A stretch of 33,596 nucleotides of DNA from Myxococcales bacterium (lineage in GTDB: Bacteria; Myxococcota; UBA727; GCA-2721815): positions 1 through 33,596 of the forward strand of contig PBLQ01000028.1 in assembly GCA_002721815.1 (NCBI GenBank), in the 5' to 3' direction. This document shows, piece after piece, positions 7,875 through 27,756 of the stretch. The first letter of the stretch is position 1. Each line of letters starts with the position of its first letter. Position numbers and translations under genes: made by a program. Under the pieces are notes generated by a model, which had not been told where the DNA came from, made no database searches, and was given only the letters and a program-made list of their open reading frames with translations.

Positions 7875-7895
7875 GTTCGCTCCTGTGAACCCTTC

Positions 7896-8735
7896 TTAAG
7901 AAGAAGTTCCGCCTGTTGTTTCAAACCGTTGTAAAGCGCCAAAGCAATTGCCACTGCCCTGACGTGTGAATGACATGAGGCCCATGTTCGCCTCTTCGGC
8001 GACCTCGACCGCGAGGGAGGATGCCGCAGATACGGCCACCAAAATGGGGACGGCGGCTTTCCATGCTTTTTGGGCAATTTCAAAAGAGATGCGACCGCTG
8101 ACCACTAAAATACTGTCGGCGAAAGACAAGTCGTGAGAAAGGCCCCACCCAATCACTTTGTCGGTGGCGTTGTGACGTCCAATGTCTTCGCACACTTTGA
8201 TGCAATCACCGTCTTTGGAAAACAGCGCAGCCGCGTGAAGGCCTCCGGTGCTCTCAAAAATGTCTTGCGCCTTTCGCATTTGCTCGGGCATTTGAGCCAA
8301 AGAGGTCAGATCAGCTCGCCAATTCACCGGCATGGGCCCCAAATCTTTACTGAGGTTCTCGAGGGAAGCTTTGCCGCATACCCCACAAGATGCATTGGCA
8401 AACAGATGTCGTTCTTGCGCGTTCCAGTCCATGTGGATCGATTCGTCCAACCGGATTTGTAAAATATTTTCTTCAGCCTCAGGCGTGGGAACAGTGCTAC
8501 AATGTCTGATGCTTTGAATGTCTCGGGCATTGGCAATGATGCCTTCACCGAACAACAAACCTTTTGCTAAATTGAAATCGTCGCCCGGGGTGCGCATGAC
8601 CGTCACCCACCTGCGGCCTGCAATTTGAATTTCCAACGGCTCTTCACACACCAAAACATCCGCTTGGGGTACTAAAGCGTTGTCAGAAAATTTAGACGTT
8701 CCTTTGGAACGGATGCGGGAATCCTCACCGGACAT
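7896..8735 (-). CDS. fdhD: FdhD, sulfurtransferase for formate dehydrogenase maturation
   Basis: FdhD carries sulfur from a cysteine desulfurase to the molybdenum cofactor of formate dehydrogenase in the cytoplasm. The product is 279 residues from the chosen ATG. It has the two-cysteine signature NASCGVCGK (C117 and C120), the EDIGRHNATDKVIG motif and the C-terminal SGRISFEIAQKA segment of the family. The frame can be opened further to a TTG at 8750. However, the GGGAGG at 8742-8747 sits directly behind that TTG and is six bases before the ATG at 8735, so the ATG is the better start. The gene follows mobA by 51 bases and precedes the fusion gene by 21 bases. No formate dehydrogenase subunit is in the window. 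Confidence 0.93.
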   Translation of the reverse strand: MSGEDSRIRSKGTSKFSDNALVPQADVLVCEEPLEIQIAGRRWVTVMRTPGDDFNLAKGLLFGEGIIANARDIQSIRHCSTVPTPEAEENILQIRLDESIHMDWNAQERHLFANASCGVCGKASLENLSKDLGPMPVNWRADLTSLAQMPEQMRKAQDIFESTGGLHAAALFSKDGDCIKVCEDIGRHNATDKVIGWGLSHDLSFADSILVVSGRISFEIAQKAWKAAVPILVAVSAASSLAVEVAEEANMGLMSFTRQGSGNCFGALQRFETTGGTSS

Positions 8736-8786
8736 GACAAACCTCCCCAACAGCTTAGATCCCTAAAACATGCTGGCAACACCCTT

Positions 8787-9401
8787 TTATGGACTCACTG
8801 AGTCATAATAATCCTGGAGGGCTTCGGGGGTGTTCACATTAAAAAGCGTGGGCTCAACCAACGGCGAAACCGGTATTTTTTCGGGGCTCAATTGGGCCAA
8901 TACGGGCATCAAGGCGCGCTCTCCATCTAAAAACGCGTGTCGAAGTGCCCCGAGGCTTTGAGGCGCCAGGACCAGCGGAAAGGGGCGAAACGGATATTTT
9001 CTAACGTTTCCCTCTCCTGTTGGAAGGGCGTAACAACGGGCCAACACACTGTTATTAATAGACTTGTCCATGAGGTAGCGGAGACTGGCCGCTTGGAGGC
9101 CCGGCATATCCACCGCCACGCACATCAAGTATTTACCCGGGTATGCCCTCAGGACAGAAATGAGCCCTCCCAAGGGACCTTCGCCTTTCAGTTCATCAGA
9201 AATGACCGGTGCGGGCCAGTTGTCTTCGCCCGGCAAATGGCCTGAGATAGCGGTTTGAATGTTTATTTGCTCAAACAAACCCACCAAATGGTCCAAAAAG
9301 GTGCCGCCTTTGGGGTGAGCTAAAAGAGCCTTATCTTGACCCATTCGACGGCTTTGCCCGCCCGCCAACACCACCCCCATCCACTCAACCGAAGAAGCCA
9401 T
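8787..9401 (-). CDS. mobA: MobA, molybdenum cofactor guanylyltransferase
   Basis: MobA links GMP to molybdopterin to make the guanine dinucleotide cofactor used by formate dehydrogenase and related enzymes. The 204-residue product has the nucleotidyltransferase P-loop-like motif LAGGQSRRMGQDKAL, the EGPLGGLIS segment and the metal-binding VAVDMPGL. A GTG at 9428 would add nine residues. The ATG at 9401 is preferred because AAGGGG lies five bases upstream of it. As first gene of the group with fdhD and the fusion gene, it suggests a maturation cassette for a molybdenum or tungsten oxidoreductase encoded elsewhere. It is divergent from nhaD, and the 129 bases between them should hold both promoters. 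Confidence 0.92.
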   Translation of the reverse strand: MASSVEWMGVVLAGGQSRRMGQDKALLAHPKGGTFLDHLVGLFEQINIQTAISGHLPGEDNWPAPVISDELKGEGPLGGLISVLRAYPGKYLMCVAVDMPGLQAASLRYLMDKSINNSVLARCYALPTGEGNVRKYPFRPFPLVLAPQSLGALRHAFLDGERALMPVLAQLSPEKIPVSPLVEPTLFNVNTPEALQDYYDSVSP

Positions 9402-13104: not shown

Positions 13105-15594
13105 CTATTGAGATGCTTGTTGTGCCCGTTTCAGTGCCTCAAATGCCGCCTGTTTCACATTGTCTCTGCTGTCATTCAGATACCGCTCAATAATGGGAAT
13201 GGCTTTTTGTCCGTGGGCGCCCAAGGCCAAGATGGCTGGTGCCACCAAGACCCTTTTGGGTTCTTTCTCAATGTATTCAGACACCTTTTGGCGCTGGTCT
13301 TCTGTGAAGGCCATATCTGCAATGAGAGGCACGACCCTTGTTTTGACGTAAAAGGACTTCTCCTTCAACAAAGCATTTAGATAGATGGCCGACGCTTCCG
13401 GTGATTTGTTCATGCGCATGCTTTGGAATGCCGCCACCCGAAGGTATTGGCCATACTTCGATTGGTCCGCCAAATAAGGCTGTATGTGATCGAGTACTTT
13501 GGGGTGGCCCGCGTTGGTCAAGCCCCGAAGGAGCTGAAGCTTTCGCCAAAGATGCTGGGCCTTGGGCAACTCGCTGAGTAGAAGATTCACGCCACGGTTG
13601 TATTGTTCCAGATTGTTTTCTCGGCGAACGGAATTGGCCACCATGTAACAGGCTTGTTCTGACACGATTCGATTGGTGGGATCTTCGTAAGGTTGTTTCA
13701 CCAGATCGTGCAAGACGGCCTCTCCCACATCGGAAAGTTTGGGTGACTTGCCCAACGCAATGACGCCAACCGACCTGAACTGGGTACGCAAGTTGGGATG
13801 GCGAATGGCACGACCCACCAGAGCTTCTCCCGCCTCCCCGCCGTGGGACACTGCGGCGCGAATCATTAATGCCGCTAAGTTGGTATTGTATTCACTTCCT
13901 TTTAGGTGGCGTTCAAACAGTTGCATCATCAAATCGGGATTGGCCCTCGACATATCGGCCAGTTCACGTTGGATGCGTGCGACTTCTTTTTTGTCGACAT
14001 TTTGCCCTTGCCCAACAATAGGCGCTATCTCGTTAATAAATGTGTTGAAGTTTGCCTCAATGTTTCCACGCTCCTCGTCGGTGAGATGGCGTTGCCTGTA
14101 TGTCTTTCGTTGCGCCAACAGTGCTGCATCTAATTCATTGGAAAGAGGAAATACCTTAAAATTTTGTAGGTAGGTATTGAGATCTGCAATATTCGTCACC
14201 GGCGTGAAGTTAGCCAATTGGCTCCGCGGTGATTGAACAATTTCAACTTTTCCAGATGCGTCGGTGACCACGTACTTGTTGTCTATGTGCATGCTTATTT
14301 CACCGATGGAAGATGTCACCACACCCGTGACCGGAGACCACGTCATGACCATAGCGCCCGAAATCGAGATGTGATTGGGGCTTTCAACAATTTGTAGGCG
14401 GTCCGTGGGCTGATGCGAAGCGGGCAGTTGAAGGTACTTCGTTTTTGATTTTTCGATTTTCCATACGGTGTTGTCTGCAGCGCGCGCTTGATATTGTGCT
14501 TGGTATTGCCCCGATACATCCCATTCTTTTTTAGACCAAGCCGGGGGCGGGCCCTGCACCATGGCCCCCTGAGGAAACTGAATGTACAATGCATCCACCA
14601 AAAACAGGAAACGCGAGATAACGTCGGCGCTCATTTCAGCGTGTGCATACAACGCCTCAATTTCCGACTGGGGATTCATTTTTAGTAAGAATGGTGCCCT
14701 GCCCAATTCCTTCGTTAAGCCATACTGGAATGCCTCATTCACCTTGGCCTGATCCGCGTAGCCAGGCACTTCAAGGGTCGAACCCTCATCATGCCATTGC
14801 ATTTGCATCCAGCGGTTATTGCCAGCGTCACGGCCCAAATCGTCTAGGCTCAACTTACCTTTAAGGGTTTGCGTGGTGTGTTGGGTGGGCATGTTCACGC
14901 TGGGCCGCTCCCCATTGTGCGATGTCATTTGGGCCAGATAATCACCCATCCCCTGGGAATTAGCATCCAATTGGGTGGCCAGCTGAACGTCATAAGCCAA
15001 CTGAGCGGGCTCTTCAAATTCTTGAATGGGATTGAGGTTCCACTCCTTCATGAGTGGCCCTTTCTCGTCTATGGCTTTTTGGGTGGCACTCGTCGATGGG
15101 GCGAGCAAGCCCGCCAATGAAGCGCCCGTTAATGCCCCCGTGTTCGCTTGCAGCATCTCCAACAGATCTGATCGCAACAAGCCCGCCTCAAAGCGCGCCT
15201 GCAAACTTTTAATTAAGGCCTCGCCCCCCCTATCAAAGCCCGTCAATGTCGCACGTGCTAAGTCCATTTTTCCTTGCAACAAATGAACACTGGCCAAAAG
15301 CGTACGAACGACATCGTTGCCAGAATCATTTTCGAGCAAACCACTCAAAAGGCTCTCAGCATCTGCGTAGCGCTCCTGTTGAAGCAAGTCAGTGAGGGTG
15401 GCCTTATCTTTGGCACTGACCGACCCTTTTAAGTTGGCCATGAGCCCTGCCAACGAAGGTTCTTGCTCAACTGCCACCGCATTACCGTTGCGTTCCGCAG
15501 ACCCTTCTTGCGTGTTGAATGGGAAATCTGGACCGCAAGCTGTGGCCAAAACCAAGCCGGCCAAAGTGGCACCCAACATTAAAATGTTCGTCAT
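13105..15594 (-). CDS. Lipoprotein with helical module, vitellogenin-N-like region and HEAT-like superhelix
   Basis: This is an internal start within the long frame. The ATG at 15594 has GGAGA six bases upstream and opens a lipoprotein signal peptide with lipobox LATAC (C20). The 829 residues comprise a TPR-like helical module (48-149), a beta-containing region (~240-480) and an alpha-solenoid of HEAT-like repeats (~510-829). Two places resemble the lipid-transfer protein N-module of vitellogenin, apoB and MTP. One is residues 300-368, where a PFLLKMNP strand, a helix and then EWDVSGQYQAQY recall the N-sheet. The other is 688-730 (LRGLTNAGHPK, then LRVAAFQSMR), which recalls the repeat of the helical domain. 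The assignment rests on remembered family patterns and needs a profile search. A lipid-anchored periplasmic or surface protein is expected. Confidence 0.72.
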   Translation of the reverse strand: MTNILMLGATLAGLVLATACGPDFPFNTQEGSAERNGNAVAVEQEPSLAGLMANLKGSVSAKDKATLTDLLQQERYADAESLLSGLLENDSGNDVVRTLLASVHLLQGKMDLARATLTGFDRGGEALIKSLQARFEAGLLRSDLLEMLQANTGALTGASLAGLLAPSTSATQKAIDEKGPLMKEWNLNPIQEFEEPAQLAYDVQLATQLDANSQGMGDYLAQMTSHNGERPSVNMPTQHTTQTLKGKLSLDDLGRDAGNNRWMQMQWHDEGSTLEVPGYADQAKVNEAFQYGLTKELGRAPFLLKMNPQSEIEALYAHAEMSADVISRFLFLVDALYIQFPQGAMVQGPPPAWSKKEWDVSGQYQAQYQARAADNTVWKIEKSKTKYLQLPASHQPTDRLQIVESPNHISISGAMVMTWSPVTGVVTSSIGEISMHIDNKYVVTDASGKVEIVQSPRSQLANFTPVTNIADLNTYLQNFKVFPLSNELDAALLAQRKTYRQRHLTDEERGNIEANFNTFINEIAPIVGQGQNVDKKEVARIQRELADMSRANPDLMMQLFERHLKGSEYNTNLAALMIRAAVSHGGEAGEALVGRAIRHPNLRTQFRSVGVIALGKSPKLSDVGEAVLHDLVKQPYEDPTNRIVSEQACYMVANSVRRENNLEQYNRGVNLLLSELPKAQHLWRKLQLLRGLTNAGHPKVLDHIQPYLADQSKYGQYLRVAAFQSMRMNKSPEASAIYLNALLKEKSFYVKTRVVPLIADMAFTEDQRQKVSEYIEKEPKRVLVAPAILALGAHGQKAIPIIERYLNDSRDNVKQAAFEALKRAQQASQ

Positions 15595-18500
15595 TCTCAA
15601 TCTCCGTTTTCTCTTCACCGATTGATTGCCTCTCAATTCGTTCCCTTTTCGTCGCCAAAACAGCAAGAACAGGAGTCCCCACAACACATCGGAACCACCA
15701 CTCGTGTCACAATCACACCCGCCGGAGGGTGGGTTTTGGTCGTTGTTTGCACCTGGACCCTCAACGCTCATTGAACCTGCATCGCTGGATGGCAGACCAC
15801 CTGCTTCCGTACCGCTTCCAGCATCGATCAGGTTGGATTCAACTGACTCACCTGCATCTGCCACTGCTTCCACCGGCGTGTCTCTGCCAGCATCCATCGC
15901 TGGATCTTCAGGCACAGACCCGGCGTCGGTTTCCGGGCCTACGGGTGGATTTTCAGTGCCAGTACCTGCATCAACAACAGGGTCGACGGGTGGATTCTCA
16001 GCGCCAGAACCTGCATCGACTGCCGGGTCATCTGGTGGCGTCTCAACGCCAGTGCCTGCATCGGCAACAGGGTCAACGGGTGGCTGGCTGCTACCAGCGT
16101 CAGCTCCAGCGGGGACCGTTGGTTCGTCACTGCCCGCATCAGATGTTTGCGTCACTGGGTCTTCCGTCGCTCCCGCATCTGGTGCATCTGTCTCGAGCGT
16201 ACCAGCTCCGGCATCTAATGTCGGGTTCAAAGGGCCCTCCGTAGTGCCCGCATCGGAGACGTTACTGACAGGATCCGGTGTACCGCTGTCCAATGTTGTT
16301 GGCATGCCGGCATCACTCCAGTCGGCCTCGCCCACAAAGCCACTGGAAAAATGAGTCACTTCGGCCACCACAAAGCGACCGTCCTCGTTTTCTTCTACCG
16401 CACTGTCCAGTAAATCGTAACCTCCCGTTTCATTGGACCAATACATCCCCACGCCGCGCACATCGCCTGTGAAAGGCAACATCACTTTCACAGGTTCAAC
16501 GAAAGACAATCCATCCGGACCGAAATGGTACAACGGCGAAAGCAAAGTATAATCCGCAACGCAACGCACCTGGGTTCTCTCCACGCTGATTTCCACAGAA
16601 TCAGCCAACGCCCCGGACGGTACTTCTAAAGATGCGCTGTTGGTCAGTGTGATCACCCCTCCGGATACTTCCATATCCTGTATTTGCAATTCCCCTTCGG
16701 CATCATCCCAACAGTCAGGCGGACAGTCGTTCTCAGGGTTATCGTCACAAACGCCACAAGTATCGAGCGTGGCGGCGCCGCCCCATTCATCATTACAGTC
16801 TTGGACGCATGCCTCAGCCCCAGAGTTGCCGCCGGTACAGTTCCCGCAATTGTCCACCACAGCGCTTCCGGCCCAATCACCATGGCAGTCTTGGGTGCAA
16901 TCATTACTCGGATCATTGTCGCAGGTGCCACAATTGTCTTCCAAGGCATCACCGCCCAAGTCTCCGTTACAATCCACATCGCAGTCATTGGTCGGATCGT
17001 CGTCACACGTTCCACAGTTGTCTTCATAGGACTGACCGCCGCATTCCTCGGCACAGTCTACAACCTCAATGCCGCCCCATTGGCCACTGCAGTCCTGAAT
17101 ACAAGCCACCAAACCCGTGGTGCCTCCCACGCAGGTGTTGCAATTATCCAGCTCTGCCGTGCCCCCCCATTCGTTGTTACAATCTTGCGCACACGCTTCT
17201 AAGCCGGTGGTGCCTCCCGTGCACACGTTGCAATCATCCAGCACCGCGGCGCCGCCCCATTCACCGTTGCAGTCTTGCTCGCAAGCAACCACACCGGTGG
17301 TACCACCGACACAGTTGTTACAGTTGTCTAGCGCTGCCGTGCCACCCCATTCGTTGTTACAATCTTGGGTACACGCTTCTTGGCCGGTGGTGCCCCCCGT
17401 ACACACATTGCAACCATCTAGCACCGCGGTGCCGCCCCATTCACCGTTACAGTCTTCGGCGCAAGCGGTAAGGTTGGTGTTACCGCCCACACAGGCATCA
17501 CAGTTATCAAGTGCGGCCGAACCACCCCAATCCCCATTGCAATCTTGTATACAATCATTGGCAGGGTCGTCATCACAGATATCACAATTGTCTAAAGTGG
17601 CTTCGCCGCCCCAGTTCCCATCACAGTCTTGTACACAGTCATTGGTGGGATCATTGTCACAGACATTGCAGTTGTCCAGTTGCGCATCGCCACCCGGGGC
17701 ACCTGTACAATCGTTGTTGCAGGCGCTCTGACCTGTAGTGCCTCCCACACAGTCACCACAATTATCATAAAATGCACTGCCATTGTTCACGCCGTTGCAA
17801 TCATCACAAAAGGTGTCAGGCCCGGCAGCGCTGTCACCGGCGGTGTTGGTGAAGCCTAAATCACAATCGATGCACTCATGACCCTCAACCCGTCTGTCCG
17901 CTTCACAGTACACTATTTCACACGCGTTTTGGTTCAGTTGGTAACCCAATGTACAACTGCTGCAAGCCGCCGTGTTATGGGAGTTACAATCGAGCCCAGT
18001 GGCCGCTGTGCCATTTTCACAGGTACAGACATTCACGATACAACTGCCGCTATCCAGGTGGTAACCATCCGCACAGGAGCTACAAAGCGTTCCTGCATGC
18101 ACGGCACAATCAACACCCACAGCGCCTACGCCATTATCGCATTCACAAATATTTTCCACGCATGCATTTCCATTGAGATGGTAACCATCGCTACAAGTAT
18201 CGCATCTTGAAGCGTCATGAGTCACGCAGTCAGCCCCCGTGGCTCCCACGCCGTTTTCACAAGTGCAAACATTCTCTGTACAGCTGCCGGCTTCAAGATG
18301 ATGACCGGTGGTACAACTCGCGCACCAAGCCGATTGATGGTTCTCGCAAGCAACGCCCGTCGCTCCGACGCCATTGGCACAAACGCACACGTTTTCAGCA
18401 CATTGTTCATTTTCGAGGTGAAAACCAGTCTCACAAGAAGCGCACGTCACCGTTCCATGGGCATTGCATGCATCTCCGGTGGCGCCAACCCCGTTGGCAC

Positions 18501-21500
18501 AAGTACAAATGTTTTCAATACAGGCGCCATCATCCAAGTGATAGCCGGTATAACACTGACCACAGAGCGACTCACCGTGATTTGCGCAATCCAGTCCAGA
18601 AGTACCAGCCCCATGGGCACAATTGCACTGGTTTTCGTCACAAGTAATTCCATCGCCATGGTACCCCGAAGGACAATCACCGCATTCAGCTCCCGTACCC
18701 GGTGCAGGTACGTCCAAACAAGAAACGCTGTCATCAAAACAGGGGGCCGACGCACAGCCATCGATGTCTTCGCCGCAGGTTTCGCCTTCGTAACCTTGCG
18801 CACAAACACACAAAAAGCCATTCACCTGATCTTCGCAATAGCCTTCATTTTGACAAGGGTTGGGGCTGCAATCGTCAATATTCGTCTCGCAATCATCGCC
18901 CTCGTACCCTGCAAAGCATGAACACGTGTATGCGCCGGGCGCTCCCTCACTACAACTGCCCCCATTGAGACACGGATTGGGGTCGCATTCGTTTATGTCG
19001 TACTGGCATACGTCCCCATTGAAGCCTGGCAGACAGTCGCATGTGAACTCCCCGATGCCGTCAACACAAGTCCCGCCGTTGTTGCAGGGATTTCCTTCAC
19101 AATCATCAGGGTTGATGTCGCAATGCTCGCCTTCCCAGCCCGGGTCGCAAATACAAACGTAGTCGTTTTTCAGATCTTTACAGGTACCTTTGTGGCAATT
19201 AACCCCTTCGCATTCATTTATTTCTAAACAGCCTCTGGGGTCGTCAGGGTTAACCGTAAACCCATCGGGGCATGAACATTCGTAGGAGCCAATGGTGTTA
19301 TTGCAGTTCTCTTGGCATCCGCCGTTCAACTCTTCGCATTCGTTAATATCAGAGCAAGTGGTGCCGTTCGGTTCCAACTCGTAACCTGCCGCACACCCAC
19401 ATTCGAAACTGCCATATAAGTTGGTGCATGTGCCTTCGCAATTATGGGTACCACTGCCGCACTCATCGATATCCTCATCACAGGCAATGCCTGCGTAATT
19501 GGGAATCCCGCTCGGTGGTGGCGTACAGGAATCACAACCCATTTCCTCATTGATTGGGCAGTTTGGCATTCCCAGCGCAGGCACACCATTGGTACACTCA
19601 CACCGGTTCTCGTGACATGAATCATTTTTCAAATAATATCCCTCGTCACACGCCACACAAAGCAGATCACCATTTTGCTCACACACCGGGTCGTCTGTGC
19701 CCGAGCCTAAATCGTCACACTGCAAATAATCTAAGAGATCTTGGAGCAGCAAACCCGCGGTCACCCTTTGCTTCAGTGTGGGCCCTAAATCGCTCACGCC
19801 CAGGTCGAGAAGCCAAATGTCCCCAGTGGGGATATCACCGTTGAGGTACAAAACCGCTGCAAACAGCATTTTCGCCACTTCGTTGTTCGCGTCGTCCGTC
19901 ACCAATACTTTTAAGTAATCCGATGCTTTTTTGTAGTCGCCACCAACGTCTTCACCGTGTTGCAAGAAACCCGCCAACTCTTCCTTTTGGACTTCTGTCA
20001 GTGCGCCACGCAACCCTTCAGGCCACCAGGTTGGCTCGCAGGTTTGACCAGGAGAACCTCCACCCCCAGCGACCGTTGCCGCAGTGCCATTGGGGCAGAT
20101 ACAACTCATAGTGTCCACGCACTGATTGGCTTCGTTGATGTACCAATCCGTATCGCAAGAGGTACACAGATTGGCACCATTGGTGGTACAATCTGTTCCC
20201 GTAGCCGCGGTCCCATTTTGGCACGTACAAGAATTGCCGGCACAAGTGTTTCCGTTCAGATGGAAACCTGCTTCACAGTCCCCGCATTTTTGGTCACCAT
20301 GATTCGGGCAATCCACCCCAGTCGCGCCAGTTCCATTGGCAGGACAGGTGCAGACTTTAAGCAGGCACGTATGTTCATCACTCTGAGATGGCGGATCGAT
20401 GGGATCCTGTGGGCCTTGCGGTCCATCATTAGACCCGAGTTCGTCACCATCGCCAGCACCTGCATTATTGCCGCCGGCGCTGCCACTGCCAGGCCCCAAA
20501 CCATTATTTCCTTCGCTACCTCCACCCGCATTAAGGTAATACCCATCAAAACATGAAGCACATTTCATTTCACCGTGGGTATCGCATTCGCTTCCAGAGG
20601 CTGGGGTACCATTGGCGCACAAGCACACGTTCGCCACGCAATAGTTATTGACCAACCGGTAGCCTACCTCGCATGAGGCGCAACTGGTGGCCCCATTAAA
20701 CGGACATGCACTTCCTTGAGACTCTTGGCCATTGATACAGAAACACGCATTGGGCAGACAGCTTTGGCCGCTGGCATAATAGCCAGAGCTGCAACTGGTG
20801 CAAATGTTGGCCTCGTGCGTGGTACAATCATCACCTGTTGCAGCAATACCCCCGTTACAAGTACAAGTGTTGGCCTCGCAGGTGGGACCGTCTCCCCCGG
20901 TACAGCCAGAAGCCTGGGTGCCGTCTTCAGCGCACACACACAGATCAGCTGCAACCTGACACTGCGGATGGGTGAGGCAAGCGTTCGGGTCGCCCATGTG
21001 GTCTTGGCAATCATACGCCTCATTTTCTAAATGATAATTCCCGGCACAAGACTGGCAAATGGTTGCGGAATGGGTATGGCACGCAGTCCCGGTGGCTGCA
21101 GTGCCATTGGGGCAAGCACAAACGTTATCCACACAGGTGCTACCATCCAAGTGAAACCCATCATGGCAGGAGGCGCACGTGTTCACGCCCACATCTGGAC
21201 AAGCTGCTCCAGTGGTTCCCGCACCATTGGTACAAGAACAGATGCGTGATTGCCAATAGAAGACCGCAGGAGATGGGTCCCAATTAGCGTCAGCGCTGCG
21301 ACCATCCTTCGCTTTTACCTGGAAGGTATGCAATCCGTCGCCTAAATTATTGTAGGTAACGGTACCGCTGTCGCAATTTTCCCAAGCGCCCGCGTCCAGT
21401 TTGCATTGGTAGACCCCACTGCAGTGTACATTATCCGTACAAGAAAATGCGAAGGTCACCGAGGTGGCATCAATTTCATCTCCTTGGGGTCGAGCGGTAA

Positions 21501-24500
21501 TCAAAGTATCGGGCGGCGTTGTGTCGGCCACACATTGGTGGTTCTCACAGGCTTGACTGGTGCCCGAACAATCGGAATCGACATAACATTCTGCCCCTTC
21601 GCTGTAACTGTTGACGCAGTTGCCTTCTTCAGAGCAAACCCACATGCTCCCCGTTTCACCACAATCGGAATCTTGGGTACAAGCCACGCATGAAGCACGA
21701 CAGTCTTCGCCTTGACATGATTCAATGCTGCCATCAATCACATTATCAGTACCGCGTTCCACACATTTTTTACCGATGGCGCCGCAGTTCACATTCTCCC
21801 AAACGTAAGTACACGCATGGGCTGGACCAGAATCGTCCTGGACACAAGCCCCGCCCAAACCGCAAGTATTGGAACCCGGCATACAAGTGGTCCCTGCTGA
21901 GACGAAGGTACCATCAATCAGAACCCCCTGGCCATCGCATACAAAGGCCAACTGACACAAGCCCGGGGTACGTCCCATTCGTAATGTTAATGAGTCGTTG
22001 CAATACGACGGCGCTTCAACGCACGGGTTGCGCCCTTCGGAACCTTGATCGCAAGAACAGATTTGACAATAATTGCTCTGACCCGGCGCGCAAGGATTTT
22101 GGCACGCGTCCTCGTTAAAGGACTGCGGCTTACACTCGCCAGCCTCACAGACTTCGCCCGATCCACAGGGAATGATTTCCAGACTCTCCGTGTAATCGCA
22201 ACCGATGTCTCCTCCAGAATCGAAGCATGCGCCAGTCCAAGCCACGTAATTGCTATCGCTATCGTCTTGCCCCCGGTACACCAATCGGTTCACCATGGCG
22301 CCAGCTTCATTGGGGACACAAATGGTTTCAGGCGGCCAATGCATGGGGTTCGCGGAGTCTGCACAAATCACGTCGGGATAGGTGTCGAGGTTTTCGGAAG
22401 TGATGGCATTAATGACATCGTCACCATCCAGGTCACATGGAGAATGGTATACGGGGGTGTCCACCAGATCACTGTCCATATCAATGGGGTCATCACTCAA
22501 GGCAACGTTTTCGAGCAAGGAGCACATGGAGGGTGGCATTTGATATTTTTCAAACAAGGCGACCATGGGGTTATCCCGCGAATGATGGATGTCGAAGAGG
22601 GGCACCACCAAAGTGGCATTGTTCGCCAGGCTGGTGGCAGGCGAGGTCCATTTGCCGCCGCCCACAATCGGTATTTTGACACTTACAAAACCAGCGATAT
22701 CAATGTTGGGGCCAGTGAGGTCCATGGTCCCCGTTAAATCCACATTGATTTTTTGCCGATCCCATCCACTGTCGAATTTCCCCTCTACCCCTGCGGTGGC
22801 CACATCCCCGCTGGCCGACACGCCAATGCTAATTTTGATGCCGTAAAAATTCAGATTGGTGAGCTCAATACTGCAATCTACATTCACCCCACTGCCCACA
22901 TCGGCATTGGCCGCAATAAAGGCAGGGGACATGGCCCCTTTGATTTGGTAGTCAGAATCGAGGCCCACTTCTAAGTCAATGATGTAATCGACACCCAGCA
23001 AACTGTAGGTTCGGGTGAATTGCATGTCATCGCCCCATCCCCCGTCATAGCCATCGTAATCAGAAGAGCCCATGTCGCTTCCCGCCCAAGCATCGTCATT
23101 GTTTTCATGAGGTGCTGGCACCAAGGGGTTACACGCAAAAGATGCTGCCGATAGGAATTTATCAAAATGCGGCGCATTCAGATGGGGCAACCCCGCGCCA
23201 TTGAGATTCAAATGGTTGATGTCCGGAATCGTCAATGCCCCCAACAAAGAGTTCATCACGCGTCGGTTGGAAATGTTGTTGATGCGCCAAGCATTTTTGA
23301 GGAACTGTAAAAATCGTTCAGCACCGTAGCTCGTGAGATGCCATTCACCTGCACCACCGAACTTGATGAGACACGCATTTCCAGAATTATCATCCAAGCA
23401 TTGTCGGCATAAGTCCGATCCACAGGACAATGTGGGGCCATGGAACTCGAAAAAGATATCTGGCAATTCATTGAACAAATTCACGTTGAACGAAAAGCCA
23501 TCGAGCCCAGGAATGGCCCAGTTGGGATCCGGCCAACCACTCAGAATACTTCCTTCACCACTGTGAAAGGTGTTCAAATAATTGAGCAGCGCACTCCAGC
23601 CACTAATGCTACCATTAAACCCCGGACACATGGGTTGGCCATTGGGGAATTCGGCAGAAGCGTTCCCCGTCCAGCTGCTCAATGTATCAAAGAGGGTGCC
23701 CACGAATTGAATGTCATCTTCGGTACCATAAAAGCCGTCTGGTCCAGCCTGCCGGTATTTTTCAGTCCAAACGTCGTTCACGTTGTCATACAGCTGGCTG
23801 GCGAATGGGCTGTCGGCAATGGCCGCGCCACTCTCCGAAATCATATAACGCGCATTGGCAAAGGCCATGAGGAGGATTTGAAACTTATCCACCAATCCGG
23901 GGTAATCTTTGGCCACTGCTGGGAACGTGGTGAAATGGCTGTCCAGGTGATGCAAGATCACCCGAAACCCGCAGTCGTAACTCTGACCCGTAAAGTCCGC
24001 TTCGTCACCAAAACCGAAAGATGGCGGGGAAAAAGTAATGAAATAATCATAAAAGCCACTCAGCCCCGGAAAGGTTCGAAAAAATTCGGGGGTGGCCACA
24101 TCGATCCGGAAATCAGGCAATCGAAATGGCAGACCAGAGCTACCAAAACTCATGGAGTTAAACTCAGGCGCCAGATGCAGCTGAGGCCAACCCAAGCTAT
24201 TTATTGGCACACTGGTCAAGATCGCCGTGGCGTCTCCCAGGCTCAACCGCAACAAGTTGGCCAAATGTGGGGTTTTCAAAAGAATGCCCATTTTATCAAA
24301 GTCGGCATTGCCCAGCTGAATACGAGGCAGTTGATAATTCGTCCAACTGAATTCGCAGTTGTTGCCCGGCGCCCAGGCGCACATGTTTCCGCAAGGACTT
24401 TCCGGCGTACCGGAACATGAAAAATCAGTGTTGTCCAAAAGCCCGAAGGACGGAATGGTGATCCCCGGGAAGGCCACCCCACTGCCCACGCCCCACGTGC

Positions 24501-27500
24501 CAAGATCGATGCCATCCCAATCTCCAAAGTTGGGCAACCCACTGCCCAAGTCGATGCTGATGTGCGGCAAGGTGGTGTTAATTTTCATTAAGTTCGAAGG
24601 CACCTGCAGGCTGCTCAAATTCAAACCGGCCCGCAGCCCTCTAAAGGGATTTAGATCTGCGTCACCCACCCCGGTCATGCTGAAGGAAGGCAGCGCAAAA
24701 CCACGCAAGCCATGATCGGGCCAATTCAAAAAGCTGTCACCGCTGCCGGAATCCAATTGAAAACGTGAGCACAAGCCAAAACGGGCGACAGGGTAAATGT
24801 CTGACTTCCACCTGAAAAACAGACCTGAGCTTTTTTCACCATTGCCCCCAAAATCTTCACCGCAATCCGCCAAAGAAGGCTCGGCCAATAAGAAAAGATG
24901 GGTGGTCGACGGTGGTTCGTTTTGTACGGTGACATCGGGTGCGTTCGCGCCATGAAAAACGCTATTGGCGTTGGTGCTACCGCCAATGACTTCTCCGAGC
25001 ACGTAGACCCGCCCCAGTACACCGGCGTTGAAAAACTGGTCGTCCTTACTCAGTTTACCAGACAGCCACCAGGTGCCATCGAGTCCAGCAGAGTCATCCC
25101 CCAGAGCCTCAGTGCCTTGACGGGCACACTGCGCATACGAATCCCCACCTTGCCATTGCATTTCACAACCACAAGAACCCTGGGGCTCGGGCCCGCAGTC
25201 GGTGACCAAACCACCGATCCCCGAAGTAATGGGCTCGGGGGCATTCCCCCAAAAAGAAGGGTTGGTCAAACAGTTGAGTTCATTGGCCGAACCGTTGCTC
25301 ACGTCAGCTAAAATCGCACCAGCACAAGTGGTGGACTCGCTTTCGAACAAACATCTTTCGTCGCAAAAGGCAAAAGCATTACAAACATTTAAGCACGATT
25401 GACACGAGCCGAATTCACCACAAGTCGTGAGGCTTTCACCACCGTTGTCACAAGACCAACCACAATCTGCATCTGTGCCACAAACATCATTGCAATCCGG
25501 CGCATACCCTGCAGCCTGACAGGTGCTGTTAAAATAGTTGTTATCCTCTTCTTTTAAACAAGCTGTGGCGCAGCTGTCTGCATCTCCCACCATTTCGTCA
25601 CACAGACTCGAACACAGAGTGCTTTCACATTCTTGGCACAACACTTCATTATTGGTTTCACTGTATTCACCGCAACTGTTCAGCCAATCGGGGTCTTGAG
25701 TAGCGTTGTCAAGGTCGCCGTCCACGTCACCCACATAGCCTTCACCGTTATACCAACAAGCGCGATCGCAGGCCGCATCGGCATGACAAACATCGGTATC
25801 TGGACAACTGGCGCACATGGCATAAGCCCCACATGAGCTGGGCTTGTTCCCGTCTGCACACAATGTCTCGCAGGCCGTAGGAGCACTGGGCACATCTTTG
25901 AGGAGAAAAACCGGTTCTCCCAAATTGTGAGGGTGGGTGGTGCCCGATGTCAAAATCAGGGTACCCGGAACCCCGCGGTTCCCGATTTGAAATGATTTAG
26001 ACTCTGCATTGCAGTTGTTCCCACAGTTGGGGTTCAACCAAACGGTGCCCTGTTGTGGGAATGCCCGCGTATCGGCCAGCCAAAGTTCGGTCACCCCACT
26101 TAGAGCAGCATGGTGGACGGTAGATTCCACCCGCAACGGGTAAATCGTATCCACGCTCGAATTGCTCACCCCAGTATGATGGGAGGGCAAATAAATTATG
26201 CCTTCGTCTTCCCCACCTGCTTTATTGTCATGGCTGATGTAATTGACGATTTGATCACCCACGCGCAAGGCGCCGGTATACGGAAGACCGGTGGCATCTT
26301 CAACGGCGAGCTGGGTATAAGTCAGCCCGTTGTGTGTGGATGACGCAACACTTTCGAGCCCCACTTCACGTTCACAAATGGTGGCACATTGCTGACACTT
26401 GCCAAAGTCATGACAGGTGGTCATGAAATAATCGGTGTCGTATTGCTCGCTCCCGCTGTTGGCGGGCAAGTTGGCATTGTTCCAATCGGTGTCTGTATTC
26501 CCTTCGGTTTCATTGCCCCCCATCATCATGCAAGGGCTGTTACAGGCGGTATCCCACTCGCATAAATTGCCACAAGTGCCGCAAGCGAAACCGGTTTCAT
26601 CGCCCACGAATTCGCTGCAATAATGCGCCGAAGAGCCATCATACCAACAACTTTCACCGCCCGATGCACACCCACTGCCCAGGTTGCATTTCACGCGGCA
26701 ATCGTCACCGCAAAAATTACCTGTGGTCCCACAGTTTGTGTAGGCACCGTCCAGCCAACATCCTTGGGTGCAGGCCTTGGAGGCGTCGCAATAACCGTTG
26801 TCACAACTTTGAATACACGCCTCAGCTGCAGCGCCACATGACGTGTAATTGCCATCCGCCCAACAAGGGGTCCCGCACGCCGTGCTGTCGGTGCACAACA
26901 AGTCACAAGACTGATTACACGTTTCACCGGCCTGTCCGCAGGATTGGTACGCTCCATCCTTCCAACAGTTGAGCCCCACAGGTGGACAAGGGCTGCTGGC
27001 ATCGCAAGTTAAAGAACAGGCTTGATTGTTGGGGTTACCGGAACTGGCACAGGTGGCGTCGGCACTGCCTTGACCACTGTTGAGGTAGCAGGCTTTATTG
27101 GGCGCGGAGGTATACGTGCAATGATCGGTATTGCTGCACTCATTGCTGCACACCTGGTTGGAACCCTCTAAACAGTGGGTCCAGCCACTCACTTCGCCCG
27201 TTCCAATGCAGTCGGTGTTGCACGTGGTGTTCGACCCACAAATGTTACTGCACATTTCATTACAAACCCCAAAATCACCACAATTGTCTGCCCACACATC
27301 CGTGCAGGGAAGGCCGCAAGATTTGCTCCAAGAACAGGTGATATCACAAGCCGGATCATTATTGCCCCCACCGCCATTGCCATCGCTGCTCCCCCCGTTG
27401 CCATCGTCACACACACCAAATTCGCCACATGAACTCATGCCATCGGCTTCCACGCAAACTTGTTCACAATTAGAGTCCGATGTGCACATCTCGCAAGCTT

Positions 27501-27582
27501 CTATTGCAAGCGCAGCGTGTGACCACCACAAGGGGCAACCAGCAAACAATAAAAGTATTGCATTGAAAAAAGGATGTCTCAT
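13105..27582 (-). CDS. Continuous 4825-residue frame: giant mosaic Cys-rich surface protein read into a downstream lipoprotein
   Basis: The start is set at 27582 because a signal peptide (HPFFNAILLLFAGCPLWWSHAALA) begins there, AGGCGAG precedes it, and a candidate promoter lies at 27728-27756. That promoter overlaps the ATG at 27756 that would give the longest frame. From the N-terminus the protein has a Cys-repeat region, a beta-rich Cys-poor region, a mixed Cys/Ig-like region, 40-residue Cys repeats with a helical insert, calcium-binding EGF domains, more 40-residue repeats, 30-residue DCNGEWGG repeats, a ZU5-like domain, an Asp-Ala-Gly linker and a MYXO-CTERM-like tail ending at RRK near 15643. 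No stop follows: the frame runs straight into a lipoprotein with its own signal peptide. The surface protein proper is probably ~3980 residues (27582 to ~15633), exported and anchored at the cell surface. The disulfide-rich, extended build suggests adhesion or ligand binding. Confidence 0.8.
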   Translation of the reverse strand: MRHPFFNAILLLFAGCPLWWSHAALAIEACEMCTSDSNCEQVCVEADGMSSCGEFGVCDDGNGGSSDGNGGGGNNDPACDITCSWSKSCGLPCTDVWADNCGDFGVCNEMCSNICGSNTTCNTDCIGTGEVSGWTHCLEGSNQVCSNECSNTDHCTYTSAPNKACYLNSGQGSADATCASSGNPNNQACSLTCDASSPCPPVGLNCWKDGAYQSCGQAGETCNQSCDLLCTDSTACGTPCWADGNYTSCGAAAEACIQSCDNGYCDASKACTQGCWLDGAYTNCGTTGNFCGDDCRVKCNLGSGCASGGESCWYDGSSAHYCSEFVGDETGFACGTCGNLCEWDTACNSPCMMMGGNETEGNTDTDWNNANLPANSGSEQYDTDYFMTTCHDFGKCQQCATICEREVGLESVASSTHNGLTYTQLAVEDATGLPYTGALRVGDQIVNYISHDNKAGGEDEGIIYLPSHHTGVSNSSVDTIYPLRVESTVHHAALSGVTELWLADTRAFPQQGTVWLNPNCGNNCNAESKSFQIGNRGVPGTLILTSGTTHPHNLGEPVFLLKDVPSAPTACETLCADGNKPSSCGAYAMCASCPDTDVCHADAACDRACWYNGEGYVGDVDGDLDNATQDPDWLNSCGEYSETNNEVLCQECESTLCSSLCDEMVGDADSCATACLKEEDNNYFNSTCQAAGYAPDCNDVCGTDADCGWSCDNGGESLTTCGEFGSCQSCLNVCNAFAFCDERCLFESESTTCAGAILADVSNGSANELNCLTNPSFWGNAPEPITSGIGGLVTDCGPEPQGSCGCEMQWQGGDSYAQCARQGTEALGDDSAGLDGTWWLSGKLSKDDQFFNAGVLGRVYVLGEVIGGSTNANSVFHGANAPDVTVQNEPPSTTHLFLLAEPSLADCGEDFGGNGEKSSGLFFRWKSDIYPVARFGLCSRFQLDSGSGDSFLNWPDHGLRGFALPSFSMTGVGDADLNPFRGLRAGLNLSSLQVPSNLMKINTTLPHISIDLGSGLPNFGDWDGIDLGTWGVGSGVAFPGITIPSFGLLDNTDFSCSGTPESPCGNMCAWAPGNNCEFSWTNYQLPRIQLGNADFDKMGILLKTPHLANLLRLSLGDATAILTSVPINSLGWPQLHLAPEFNSMSFGSSGLPFRLPDFRIDVATPEFFRTFPGLSGFYDYFITFSPPSFGFGDEADFTGQSYDCGFRVILHHLDSHFTTFPAVAKDYPGLVDKFQILLMAFANARYMISESGAAIADSPFASQLYDNVNDVWTEKYRQAGPDGFYGTEDDIQFVGTLFDTLSSWTGNASAEFPNGQPMCPGFNGSISGWSALLNYLNTFHSGEGSILSGWPDPNWAIPGLDGFSFNVNLFNELPDIFFEFHGPTLSCGSDLCRQCLDDNSGNACLIKFGGAGEWHLTSYGAERFLQFLKNAWRINNISNRRVMNSLLGALTIPDINHLNLNGAGLPHLNAPHFDKFLSAASFACNPLVPAPHENNDDAWAGSDMGSSDYDGYDGGWGDDMQFTRTYSLLGVDYIIDLEVGLDSDYQIKGAMSPAFIAANADVGSGVNVDCSIELTNLNFYGIKISIGVSASGDVATAGVEGKFDSGWDRQKINVDLTGTMDLTGPNIDIAGFVSVKIPIVGGGKWTSPATSLANNATLVVPLFDIHHSRDNPMVALFEKYQMPPSMCSLLENVALSDDPIDMDSDLVDTPVYHSPCDLDGDDVINAITSENLDTYPDVICADSANPMHWPPETICVPNEAGAMVNRLVYRGQDDSDSNYVAWTGACFDSGGDIGCDYTESLEIIPCGSGEVCEAGECKPQSFNEDACQNPCAPGQSNYCQICSCDQGSEGRNPCVEAPSYCNDSLTLRMGRTPGLCQLAFVCDGQGVLIDGTFVSAGTTCMPGSNTCGLGGACVQDDSGPAHACTYVWENVNCGAIGKKCVERGTDNVIDGSIESCQGEDCRASCVACTQDSDCGETGSMWVCSEEGNCVNSYSEGAECYVDSDCSGTSQACENHQCVADTTPPDTLITARPQGDEIDATSVTFAFSCTDNVHCSGVYQCKLDAGAWENCDSGTVTYNNLGDGLHTFQVKAKDGRSADANWDPSPAVFYWQSRICSCTNGAGTTGAACPDVGVNTCASCHDGFHLDGSTCVDNVCACPNGTAATGTACHTHSATICQSCAGNYHLENEAYDCQDHMGDPNACLTHPQCQVAADLCVCAEDGTQASGCTGGDGPTCEANTCTCNGGIAATGDDCTTHEANICTSCSSGYYASGQSCLPNACFCINGQESQGSACPFNGATSCASCEVGYRLVNNYCVANVCLCANGTPASGSECDTHGEMKCASCFDGYYLNAGGGSEGNNGLGPGSGSAGGNNAGAGDGDELGSNDGPQGPQDPIDPPSQSDEHTCLLKVCTCPANGTGATGVDCPNHGDQKCGDCEAGFHLNGNTCAGNSCTCQNGTAATGTDCTTNGANLCTSCDTDWYINEANQCVDTMSCICPNGTAATVAGGGGSPGQTCEPTWWPEGLRGALTEVQKEELAGFLQHGEDVGGDYKKASDYLKVLVTDDANNEVAKMLFAAVLYLNGDIPTGDIWLLDLGVSDLGPTLKQRVTAGLLLQDLLDYLQCDDLGSGTDDPVCEQNGDLLCVACDEGYYLKNDSCHENRCECTNGVPALGMPNCPINEEMGCDSCTPPPSGIPNYAGIACDEDIDECGSGTHNCEGTCTNLYGSFECGCAAGYELEPNGTTCSDINECEELNGGCQENCNNTIGSYECSCPDGFTVNPDDPRGCLEINECEGVNCHKGTCKDLKNDYVCICDPGWEGEHCDINPDDCEGNPCNNGGTCVDGIGEFTCDCLPGFNGDVCQYDINECDPNPCLNGGSCSEGAPGAYTCSCFAGYEGDDCETNIDDCSPNPCQNEGYCEDQVNGFLCVCAQGYEGETCGEDIDGCASAPCFDDSVSCLDVPAPGTGAECGDCPSGYHGDGITCDENQCNCAHGAGTSGLDCANHGESLCGQCYTGYHLDDGACIENICTCANGVGATGDACNAHGTVTCASCETGFHLENEQCAENVCVCANGVGATGVACENHQSAWCASCTTGHHLEAGSCTENVCTCENGVGATGADCVTHDASRCDTCSDGYHLNGNACVENICECDNGVGAVGVDCAVHAGTLCSSCADGYHLDSGSCIVNVCTCENGTAATGLDCNSHNTAACSSCTLGYQLNQNACEIVYCEADRRVEGHECIDCDLGFTNTAGDSAAGPDTFCDDCNGVNNGSAFYDNCGDCVGGTTGQSACNNDCTGAPGGDAQLDNCNVCDNDPTNDCVQDCDGNWGGEATLDNCDICDDDPANDCIQDCNGDWGGSAALDNCDACVGGNTNLTACAEDCNGEWGGTAVLDGCNVCTGGTTGQEACTQDCNNEWGGTAALDNCNNCVGGTTGVVACEQDCNGEWGGAAVLDDCNVCTGGTTGLEACAQDCNNEWGGTAELDNCNTCVGGTTGLVACIQDCSGQWGGIEVVDCAEECGGQSYEDNCGTCDDDPTNDCDVDCNGDLGGDALEDNCGTCDNDPSNDCTQDCHGDWAGSAVVDNCGNCTGGNSGAEACVQDCNDEWGGAATLDTCGVCDDNPENDCPPDCWDDAEGELQIQDMEVSGGVITLTNSASLEVPSGALADSVEISVERTQVRCVADYTLLSPLYHFGPDGLSFVEPVKVMLPFTGDVRGVGMYWSNETGGYDLLDSAVEENEDGRFVVAEVTHFSSGFVGEADWSDAGMPTTLDSGTPDPVSNVSDAGTTEGPLNPTLDAGAGTLETDAPDAGATEDPVTQTSDAGSDEPTVPAGADAGSSQPPVDPVADAGTGVETPPDDPAVDAGSGAENPPVDPVVDAGTGTENPPVGPETDAGSVPEDPAMDAGRDTPVEAVADAGESVESNLIDAGSGTEAGGLPSSDAGSMSVEGPGANNDQNPPSGGCDCDTSGGSDVLWGLLFLLFWRRKGNELRGNQSVKRKRRLRMTNILMLGATLAGLVLATACGPDFPFNTQEGSAERNGNAVAVEQEPSLAGLMANLKGSVSAKDKATLTDLLQQERYADAESLLSGLLENDSGNDVVRTLLASVHLLQGKMDLARATLTGFDRGGEALIKSLQARFEAGLLRSDLLEMLQANTGALTGASLAGLLAPSTSATQKAIDEKGPLMKEWNLNPIQEFEEPAQLAYDVQLATQLDANSQGMGDYLAQMTSHNGERPSVNMPTQHTTQTLKGKLSLDDLGRDAGNNRWMQMQWHDEGSTLEVPGYADQAKVNEAFQYGLTKELGRAPFLLKMNPQSEIEALYAHAEMSADVISRFLFLVDALYIQFPQGAMVQGPPPAWSKKEWDVSGQYQAQYQARAADNTVWKIEKSKTKYLQLPASHQPTDRLQIVESPNHISISGAMVMTWSPVTGVVTSSIGEISMHIDNKYVVTDASGKVEIVQSPRSQLANFTPVTNIADLNTYLQNFKVFPLSNELDAALLAQRKTYRQRHLTDEERGNIEANFNTFINEIAPIVGQGQNVDKKEVARIQRELADMSRANPDLMMQLFERHLKGSEYNTNLAALMIRAAVSHGGEAGEALVGRAIRHPNLRTQFRSVGVIALGKSPKLSDVGEAVLHDLVKQPYEDPTNRIVSEQACYMVANSVRRENNLEQYNRGVNLLLSELPKAQHLWRKLQLLRGLTNAGHPKVLDHIQPYLADQSKYGQYLRVAAFQSMRMNKSPEASAIYLNALLKEKSFYVKTRVVPLIADMAFTEDQRQKVSEYIEKEPKRVLVAPAILALGAHGQKAIPIIERYLNDSRDNVKQAAFEALKRAQQASQ
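15595..15660 (-). other. Junction with missing stop between surface protein and lipoprotein
   Basis: Codons after the membrane segment read Trp-Arg-Arg-Lys-Gly-Asn and then 16 more residues to the lipoprotein ATG, with no stop. In the +1 frame a TGA lies at 15635-15633. Removing one base from the GAAAAGGG run (15650-15643) would end the protein as Arg-Arg-Lys-Gly-Thr-Asn, a normal ending for a sorting signal. The linker also holds the Shine-Dalgarno sequence of the lipoprotein, which is what an intergenic stretch would contain. Confidence 0.7.
15642..15726 (-). other. MYXO-CTERM-like C-terminal sorting signal
   Basis: The segment has a Gly-Cys-Asp-Cys motif, a short polar spacer, a hydrophobic run (VLWGLLFLLFW) and a basic cluster (RRK). 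This is the three-part plan of MYXO-CTERM signals, which are processed at the cysteine and anchor proteins at the surface. It belongs at the extreme C-terminus of a protein, yet the frame continues past it. Confidence 0.7.
15735..16315 (-). repeat. Asp-Ala-Gly / Pro-rich spacer repeats
   Basis: About fifteen degenerate units of roughly 10-17 residues are built around Asp-Ala-Gly, with Pro, Val, Thr and Glu (for example VDAGSGAENPPVDP and VDAGTGTENPPV). There is no cysteine. The position between the last folded domain and the membrane signal fits an extended stalk across the envelope. The DNA repeats at about 51 bp in 15960-16080, so the number of units may vary between strains. Confidence 0.75.
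16325..16690 (-). other. ZU5-like beta domain
   Basis: The ~120-residue segment has the ZU5 pattern: LEVPSGALADSVEISV, then YHFGPDGLSFVEPVKVMLPF, then MYWSNETGGYDLL and a closing VTHFSSGF. In bacteria such domains are usually next to a membrane anchor in large surface proteins, as here. Role probably structural. Confidence 0.65.
16708..17812 (-). repeat. DCNGEWGG-type 28-30-residue Cys repeats, about 13 units
   Basis: Units follow the pattern DCNGEWGGTAxLDNCxxC and then either xGGTTGxxAC or DDDPxNDC. Each has about four cysteines and many Asp/Asn, so disulfides and possibly calcium stabilise the rod. The four middle units alternate in two types (Asn-Gly-Glu-Trp and Asn-Asn-Glu-Trp), giving a higher-order repeat of exactly 180 bp (compare 17161 with 17341). 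One unit near 17040-17090 is shortened and irregular. Similar Asp-Cys repeats occur in large secreted bacterial proteins. Confidence 0.85.
17905..18638 (-). repeat. 40-residue six-cysteine repeats, block 2 (six units)
   Basis: The consensus is CxCxNGVGATGxxCxxH, then CxSCxxGYHLxxxxCxEN, at 40 residues (120 bp) per unit. The six units are very regular and directly contiguous, as expected from tandem duplication. The spacing of cysteines is EGF-like in density but does not match the EGF signature. A Cys-poor half-unit (EADRRVEGHECIDCDLGF) closes the block. Confidence 0.85.
18640..19479 (-). repeat. Array of calcium-binding EGF-like domains
   Basis: About seven domains lie in tandem. They begin with the calcium signature (DIDEC, DINEC, EINEC, DINECDPNPC, NIDDCSPNPC, DIDGC) and contain the NGGxC and CxCxxGYxGxxC core of EGF modules as in Notch or fibrillin. 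The calcium-binding Asp/Glu, the Asn and the aromatic residue (for example GSFEC, GAYTC) are present in most units. A final module (ECGDCPSGYHGDGITC) is atypical. In animals such arrays mediate protein-protein contact. They are uncommon but known in delta-proteobacterial surface proteins. Confidence 0.9.
19495..21250 (-). repeat. 40-residue six-cysteine repeats, block 1 (about ten units, three with insertions)
   Basis: The same consensus as the block at 17905-18638 is seen, but less regular: CxCxNGTAATGxxC, CxSCxxGYHL, C. One unit (about 20395-20540) carries a Gly/Asn/Pro-rich loop after GYYLN. Another near 20980 has an extra Cys-containing loop. A third is split by the helical module at 19720-20035 between Gly-Thr-Ala-Ala-Thr and its next cysteine. 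The last unit merges into the first EGF domain. Confidence 0.8.
19720..20035 (-). other. Helical (TPR-like) module inserted inside a Cys repeat
   Basis: About 100 residues with no internal cysteine replace the loop of a 40-residue repeat. The segment is Leu/Ala/Asp-rich and predicted helical. It aligns end to end with residues ~52-149 of the downstream lipoprotein: LKGSV/LRGAL at the start, NDVVRTLLASVHLLQG/NEVAKMLFAAVLYLNG in the middle, and AGLLRSDLLEMLQ/AGLLLQDLLDYLQ at the end. Confidence 0.75.
21250..22459 (-). other. Mixed Cys-rich region with TSP3-like calcium loop and an Ig-like domain
   Basis: The region starts with a calcium-loop-like DLDGDDVINAI near 22430. It continues with irregular Cys-rich segments (CAPGQSNYCQICSC, CTQDSDC, CYVDSDCSGTSQAC) typical of delta-proteobacterial secreted proteins. 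It ends with a ~95-residue Ig-like domain (TTPPDTLITARP, FAFSCTDN, CKLDAGAWENC, LGDGLHTFQVKAKD) at about 21245-21530. That domain type recurs in bacterial cell-surface proteins as a beta-sandwich spacer. Confidence 0.65.
22460..25315 (-). other. Cys-poor beta-rich region of about 950 residues, no recognised family
   Basis: The region has few cysteines and recurring short strands of the form Leu/Phe-Pro followed by alternating hydrophobics: LPHISIDLG, FPGITIPSFG, LPRIQLG, WPQLHLAP, LPDFRIDVATP, LPDIFFEF. Near 22640-22900 alternating strands (IKISIGVSASG, INVDLTGTMDLTG, IAGFVSVKIP) look like amphipathic sheet. It is the largest globular part of the protein and probably its functional core. I do not recognise it. 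Confidence 0.5.
25316..27504 (-). repeat. N-terminal Cys repeats, about 13-14 irregular units, with one beta insert
   Basis: Units of ~30-40 residues follow C-x2-3-C-x5-C-x3-C, a short loop, then CGxxxxxC, for example CTSDSNCEQVC with SSCGEFGVC, and CTDSTACGTPCWADGNYTSCG. Between about 25890 and 26370 a Cys-poor beta segment interrupts the array (LRVGDQIVNYISHD, VTELWLADTRAFP, HNLGEPVFLL). The unit type differs from the other repeat families in the same protein. Confidence 0.75.
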
Positions 27583-27684
27583 GGCGCTCGCCTGTTCTGC
27601 ACATGAGTGCTTTTGAAAGTTTTTTTTGGGGGGATGGGATGCGCGAAATTTCGAACGATGAAAAGCATGCACAAACGGTCCTCC

Positions 27685-27724
27685 CAGTGGCCAAACCTCA
27701 AATATTTCGGGTTCTTGGCCACTG
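27685..27724 (-). promoter_or_regulatory. Stem-loop at the predicted 5' end of the giant-gene mRNA
   Basis: A perfect 10-bp inverted repeat (CAGTGGCCAA with TTGGCCACTG) has a 20-base loop in which ACC and GGT can add three pairs. No U-run follows on either strand, so it is not a typical terminator. It begins about four bases after the -10 box of the candidate promoter, so it would cap the transcript and could stabilise a very long mRNA. It could also be an operator. Confidence 0.55.
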
Positions 27725-27727
27725 AAA

Positions 27728-27756
27728 AGTGTAGCTCGATATGAAACATCCATCAA
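27728..27756 (-). promoter_or_regulatory. Candidate sigma-70-type promoter of the giant gene
   Basis: On the minus strand TTGATG (27756-27751) and TACACT (27733-27728) are separated by 17 bases. Each hexamer matches four of six consensus bases. Transcription would start near 27721, giving a leader of about 139 bases to the ATG at 27582. Confidence 0.5.

Follow-up and report, generated by a model that had tools for sequence, protein, structure and literature searches.

The closest described systems to the protein analyzed here are the large lipid transfer proteins (LLTPs), which the literature we examined regards as metazoan proteins. The large subunit of MTP comprises a barrel (residues 22-297), a helical domain (298-603), and C-terminal sheets (604-894); the barrel and helical domain dock apoB and PDI, and the C-terminal sheets bind and transfer lipid (PMC3337244). 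In animal LLTPs, the open beta-sheet of vitellinogen (PF09172) comes after the Vitellogenin_N region (PF01347).

We analyzed a 33,596-nucleotide stretch of DNA from a Myxococcales bacterium (contig PBLQ01000028.1), referred to here as the window. An initial annotation had proposed that it encodes a membrane-anchored bacterial lipoprotein resembling the lipid-transfer module of vitellogenin and apoB. The gene, P0001, has the following features:

13105..15618 (-), family A gene P0001, a predicted lipoprotein with an LLTP N-module, based on the open frame and the leave-out family profile (E = 8e-32)
15618 (-), probable GTG start, or 15594 (-), ATG start; stop at 13105-13107
15535..15594 (-), predicted lipoprotein signal peptide with the relaxed lipobox LVLATA-C20, based on sequence
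15142..15432 (-), TPR-like N-terminal extension, residues 55-151 (PF14559)
14185..15024 (-), predicted LLTP-type N-terminal beta-barrel, residues about 191-470, based on a barrel-only leave-out profile and alignment to the model of homologue L022
13108..14184 (-), predicted alpha-helical solenoid, residues about 471-829, based on PF01347 and PF13646 matches and alignment to the model
13255..13569 (-), Vitellogenin_N (PF01347) match, residues 676-780, profile positions 471-578 of 590

P0001 is an 829-residue open frame on the minus strand, running from 15594 down to 13108. A plus-strand reading of the same interval was rejected, as it contains many stops. The ATG from which the protein was initially read leaves it without a charged n-region. 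Starting instead at the upstream GTG (15618) would bring in MKRKRRLR as a charged n-region and give the N terminus MKRKRRLRMTNILMLG..., a more typical signal peptide; this is the likelier start. Judged by eye, the signal peptide and lipobox cysteine identify P0001 as a putative bacterial lipoprotein. The lipobox had been described as clear; the cysteine is there, but the motif, VLATA-C, is relaxed, with Ala at -3. The four motifs quoted in the initial annotation are all present in the minus-strand frame: PFLLKMNP at 14671-14694 (residues 301-308), EWDVSGQYQAQY at 14491-14526 (residues 357-368), LRGLTNAGHPK at 13498-13530, and LRVAAFQSMR at 13414-13443. The quoted strands fall within the predicted barrel, although the beta region is larger (about 190-470) than the residues ~300-368 originally assigned to it.

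Vitellogenin_N matched P0001 above the Pfam cut-off (E = 1e-8, 34.7 bits versus a cut-off of 24), and HEAT_2 (PF13646) matched it as well. The Pfam scan gave no PF09172 match in P0001, and a direct phmmer search of the PDB with P0001 returned nothing relevant. The barrel-only leave-out profile detected P0001 at E = 4e-12, whereas the next protein, an unrelated one, scored 0.08. Ahead of the beta region, the PF14559 match spans residues 70-133, within a TPR-like extension that was not seen in the other aligned members of the family.

Based on sequence, P0001 belongs to an uncurated Myxococcota family, which we call family A. Vitellogenin_N matches occur in 50/195 genomes of the phylum at E <= 1e-6, and the loci carrying them yielded about 87 full-length family A sequences, with more found later. 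All of the aligned members (61/61) match Vitellogenin_N at E <= 0.01. A leave-out profile, built without P0001 and P0001 copies, recovered P0001 at 8e-32, and BLAST matched P0001 to L022 at 3e-8; a scan of the genome collection with P0001 alone as the query found no relative. Named members belong to Myxococcus (including M. xanthus AM003), Corallococcus, Hyalangium, Archangium, and Citreicoccus. Many Myxococcaceae genomes carry several copies, some of which lie beside dnaA. Besides P0001, the genome from which the window comes contains one more full-length copy, at C8:60230-62095, and others are found in its order. Family A also appears in a public record named Comamonas sp. KCTC 72670 (L105), evidently a misnamed myxobacterial genome. 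The scanned members match no NCBIfam model above cut-off; some family A sequences may already carry automatic Pfam or InterPro labels. A long N terminus of one member (L036) was rejected as a wrong-frame extension. An N-terminal hydrophobic segment scored above a strict threshold in 75/84 members and just below it in the other nine. Membrane anchoring, as proposed initially, is thus predicted for the family, but by different means: through the lipobox in P0001 and through an N-terminal hydrophobic segment, with no lipobox, in most relatives.

AlphaFold2 prediction of P0001 from its single sequence was unusable (pLDDT 41), and its fold was therefore assigned by homology. The model of L022, predicted from 61 sequences including P0001, reached a pLDDT of 87. 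P0001 aligns with this model over its whole length, and its barrel region aligns to the model's strands and helices. In a Foldseek search of the PDB with the L022 model, ranks 1-8 were all LLTP chains: MTP, which gave the best match (2.2e-18, 1.9e-17, and 6.3e-14), lipovitellin (2.7e-15), bee vitellogenin (3.6e-12), and apoB (1.5e-12 to 6.9e-12). The first generic HEAT proteins, which were HEAT designs, appeared at 5e-7, below all eight. VIA, a DALI-like comparison, placed model residues 63-649 on MTP 26-629 (6i7s, Z 19.8), residues 64-649 on lipovitellin 17-640 (1lsh, Z 19.7), and residues 61-324 on the apoB beta-barrel (9bd8, Z 18.6, 4.8 A over 245 residues). On Z alone, an alphaRep tops the VIA ranking, and alphaReps stand beside the LLTPs. 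Because HEAT designs score about as high in Z on the helical half by itself, the barrel is the discriminating part. Whole-chain TM-scores against LLTPs are modest (0.34-0.44) and the rmsd is large, and thus the angle between the two domains is uncertain. A search of the PDB with the family A profile matched lipovitellin at 7.6e-15 and MTP at 1.6e-7 (MTP 294-500), with alphaRep proteins outranking lipovitellin.

These results agree with the proposed order of a beta region followed by a helical superhelix, which the model renders as a beta-barrel with two helices and then a solenoid. Neither of the outcomes named at the outset as refuting the proposal was seen: the vitellogenin match is present in P0001 and its aligned relatives, and the family model, of L022 rather than P0001, ranks LLTP structures first across both domains, with an LLTP-type barrel and helical layer predicted. 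The barrel is assigned to the family by the model and to P0001 by homology, and P0001 very probably carries the barrel and helical domain of an LLTP N-module.

In domain order and in similar domain lengths, family A is like the MTP large subunit (6i7s, 8eoj). The family A model ends at residue 649, aligned to MTP 629, the end of the helical domain. In contrast to MTP, family A is bacterial and membrane-anchored, has no C-terminal lipid-binding sheet domain, and pairs with a second family, B, where MTP pairs with PDI. Its barrel and helical domain also superpose on those of lipovitellin/vitellogenin (1lsh, 9enr) and apoB (9bd1, 9bd8), which have Pfam Vitellogenin_N in common with family A. However, the family A chain, at about 650 residues, lacks the open beta-sheet, the C- and A-sheets, the vWD domain, and the lipid cavity. 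HEAT-repeat proteins (PF13646, alphaRep, PP2A-A) have the helical solenoid half in common with family A but no barrel, and Foldseek places them below the LLTPs. Since family A ends after the helical domain, it is not a complete LLTP. The term "lipid-transfer module" was too strong, because the sheets with which MTP holds and transfers lipid are missing; what stands is the barrel and helical module, the docking part only, which corresponds to about the first two-thirds of the animal carriers. The description of P0001 as a bacterial member of the LLTP family likewise holds for an anchored N-module homologue, but not for a complete LLTP.

Family A genes adjoin those of another secreted family, B, whose members carry a signal peptide or lipobox. 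B proteins combine a variable N-terminal part, such as C-type lectin and EGF (L094), laminin-G (L147), or Cys-rich sequence (L047), with a conserved beta-rich domain. A B gene was detected at 56/64 family A loci having flanks; at 4 of these 56 it lies about 3.5 kb away, across dnaA. No B was detected near the other eight family A genes, six of which are beside dnaA. Two out-of-sample tests gave the same pairing: each of the four A loci from the order to which the window belongs has an adjoining B (4/4), and every one of the B loci picked from a genome scan with the B profile has an adjoining A (20/20), most of the latter from genomes with no Vitellogenin_N match at 1e-6. The window's own genome contains a second B-A pair of canonical form (L135, G000:C8:53000-69592, positions 4611-9111, +), with a B of 861 aa bearing a lipobox and an A of 631 aa. 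In four Myxococcaceae loci (L048, L079, L087, L090), dnaA has an A gene on either side, in the order B - A - dnaA - A, adjoining the presumed replication origin; DnaA was identified by Pfam in L048. Some B proteins are very large (L147, >2600 codons; L137, about 2100 codons), with the B domain at the C terminus, and L147 is Cys-rich with laminin-G.

Amphipathic beta windows are about threefold more numerous in the B domain than in its shuffled copies. By the same measure, the barrel of A exceeds its shuffles and the helical half does not. The only recurrent Pfam echo in B is PF09172, always below cut-off (best 16.6 versus 23.7 bits) and at about profile positions 177-281 of 303; B genes hold 4/28 sub-threshold PF09172 matches phylum-wide. 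This resemblance is limited to a few B proteins, and the case differs from vitellinogen itself in that no match passes the cut-off, searching the PDB with B profiles gave no match, and B is a separate polypeptide. We predicted that other top PF09172 matches would adjoin family A genes, which was wrong: the eight other match regions inspected, better-ranked rivals of the B matches among them, were mostly low-complexity, with a family A gene near none of them, and the matches were mostly artefacts of this kind or unrelated. PF09172 matches to low-complexity repeats (QM, EV, DADAA, and DG runs, in G010:C1243, G103:C2, G046:C145, and G002:C1) should be ignored.

The best explanation of these observations, to which we assign a probability of roughly 0.55, is that P0001 is a membrane-tethered LLTP N-module, barrel then solenoid, facing the periplasm or the cell surface and forming one half of a two-gene system. 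This module would dock the co-encoded secreted partner B at the membrane, and the amphipathic beta-strand domain of B would supply the lipid-handling or client part, making A and B either a split LLTP or a chaperone-client pair. The analogy is to the MTP barrel and helical domain docking apoB in lipoprotein assembly. That A and B act together is very probable, and lipid as the cargo of the system is an even bet. The narrower version, a Myxococcota split LLTP in which anchored barrel-helical A and secreted beta-sheet B carry or assemble lipid, is tentative, falling somewhat short of even odds; that B represents the missing LLTP sheets is a good hypothesis, not a result.

The main rival to the lipid reading is a secretion-chaperone pair with no role in lipid handling, in which A, though homologous to the LLTP N-module, would serve purely as a protein scaffold or as a secretion chaperone for a B protein of the envelope or extracellular matrix. 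The absence of lipid-binding sheets from family A, whose model ends with the helical domain, is consistent with this, as are the adhesion-type N termini of many B proteins (L094, L147, L047) and the docking of proteins by the two corresponding MTP domains (PMC3337244). However, the abundance of amphipathic beta strands in the B domain and the LLTP-sheet identity of its only recurrent Pfam echo point toward lipid, and we regard the pure scaffold as possible but on balance doubtful.

At the P0001 locus itself, the position of partner B is occupied by a giant protein with the following features:

15595..27756 (-), giant secreted protein of Cys-rich/EGF type, about 4054 codons, sharing the frame of P0001 with no intervening stop
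15661..15726 (-), sub-threshold MYXO-CTERM-like match at the tail of the giant protein (14.9 versus 20 bits)
19714..20013 (-), segment like the TPR-like extension of P0001 (35% identity, E = 9.7e-4)
22279..23028 (-), most B-like stretch of the giant protein, residues 1577-1826, by rank and not significant

The TPR-like segment common to the extension of P0001 and to the giant protein ties the two together. Several profiles were tried in a search for a B domain in the giant protein, and scores were no higher than those of decoys. In the most B-like stretch (residues 1577-1826), 10/20 top matches were to B, versus at most 6/20 in 80 controls, with profile scores within the range of decoys. Giant Cys-rich B proteins exist elsewhere (L147). 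In a different part of the window, 2655-7874 (-) encodes a 1739-aa protein with aldehyde dehydrogenase and class-III aminotransferase domains.

A single stop-free frame of 4883 codons (13105-27756, -) holds the giant protein with P0001 at its 3' end, which raises the alternative that the two form one natural fusion polypeptide. The continuous frame is what would be expected of a fusion, but after the MYXO-CTERM-like tail comes a new signal peptide that has its own start and a ribosome-binding-like sequence, and at the other loci inspected A and its neighbor are normally separate genes. At the junction, about 15600-15660, loss of the stop or a one-base sequencing error (an indel) is just as likely, and we regard a fusion as unlikely. 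Least probable is a generic HEAT protein beside an unrelated beta domain, with a Vitellogenin_N match reflecting HEAT periodicity and convergence: HEAT profiles do match, alphaReps outrank lipovitellin in the PDB profile search, one of them tops the VIA Z ranking, and PF01347 matched unrelated HEAT proteins at loose thresholds in a control, but this reading is disfavored by the modeled barrel, which alone matches that of apoB at Z 18.6, as well as by the coverage of both domains in the eight leading Foldseek matches and by domain lengths and order that fit MTP (22-297, 298-603).

Within the preferred reading of an anchored N-module working with B, the giant neighbor would play the B role in the window. 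We infer this role, as well as the A-B contact, the lipid cargo, and the direction of transport.

Our literature search, which was confined to papers outside subscription and in which absence is no proof, found no description of bacterial vitellogenin or MTP homologues. The barrel and helical domains are known; we did not find the bacterial, truncated, anchored, and B-paired form described in the literature searched. Family A offers an outgroup for LLTP evolution, sharing the two-domain module without a lipid cavity and genetically tied to B, as well as a tractable system in which to ask how the docking half functions when the lipid half is missing. The pairing hints at a two-piece lipid carrier, where the LLTP has been thought an animal invention. 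A split LLTP, if true, would give bacteria an equivalent of MTP and apoB, and would mean that this architecture is older than animals or shared beyond them. For the myxobacteria themselves, A and B point to a two-gene system, as yet unstudied, that would act in the envelope or in secretion.
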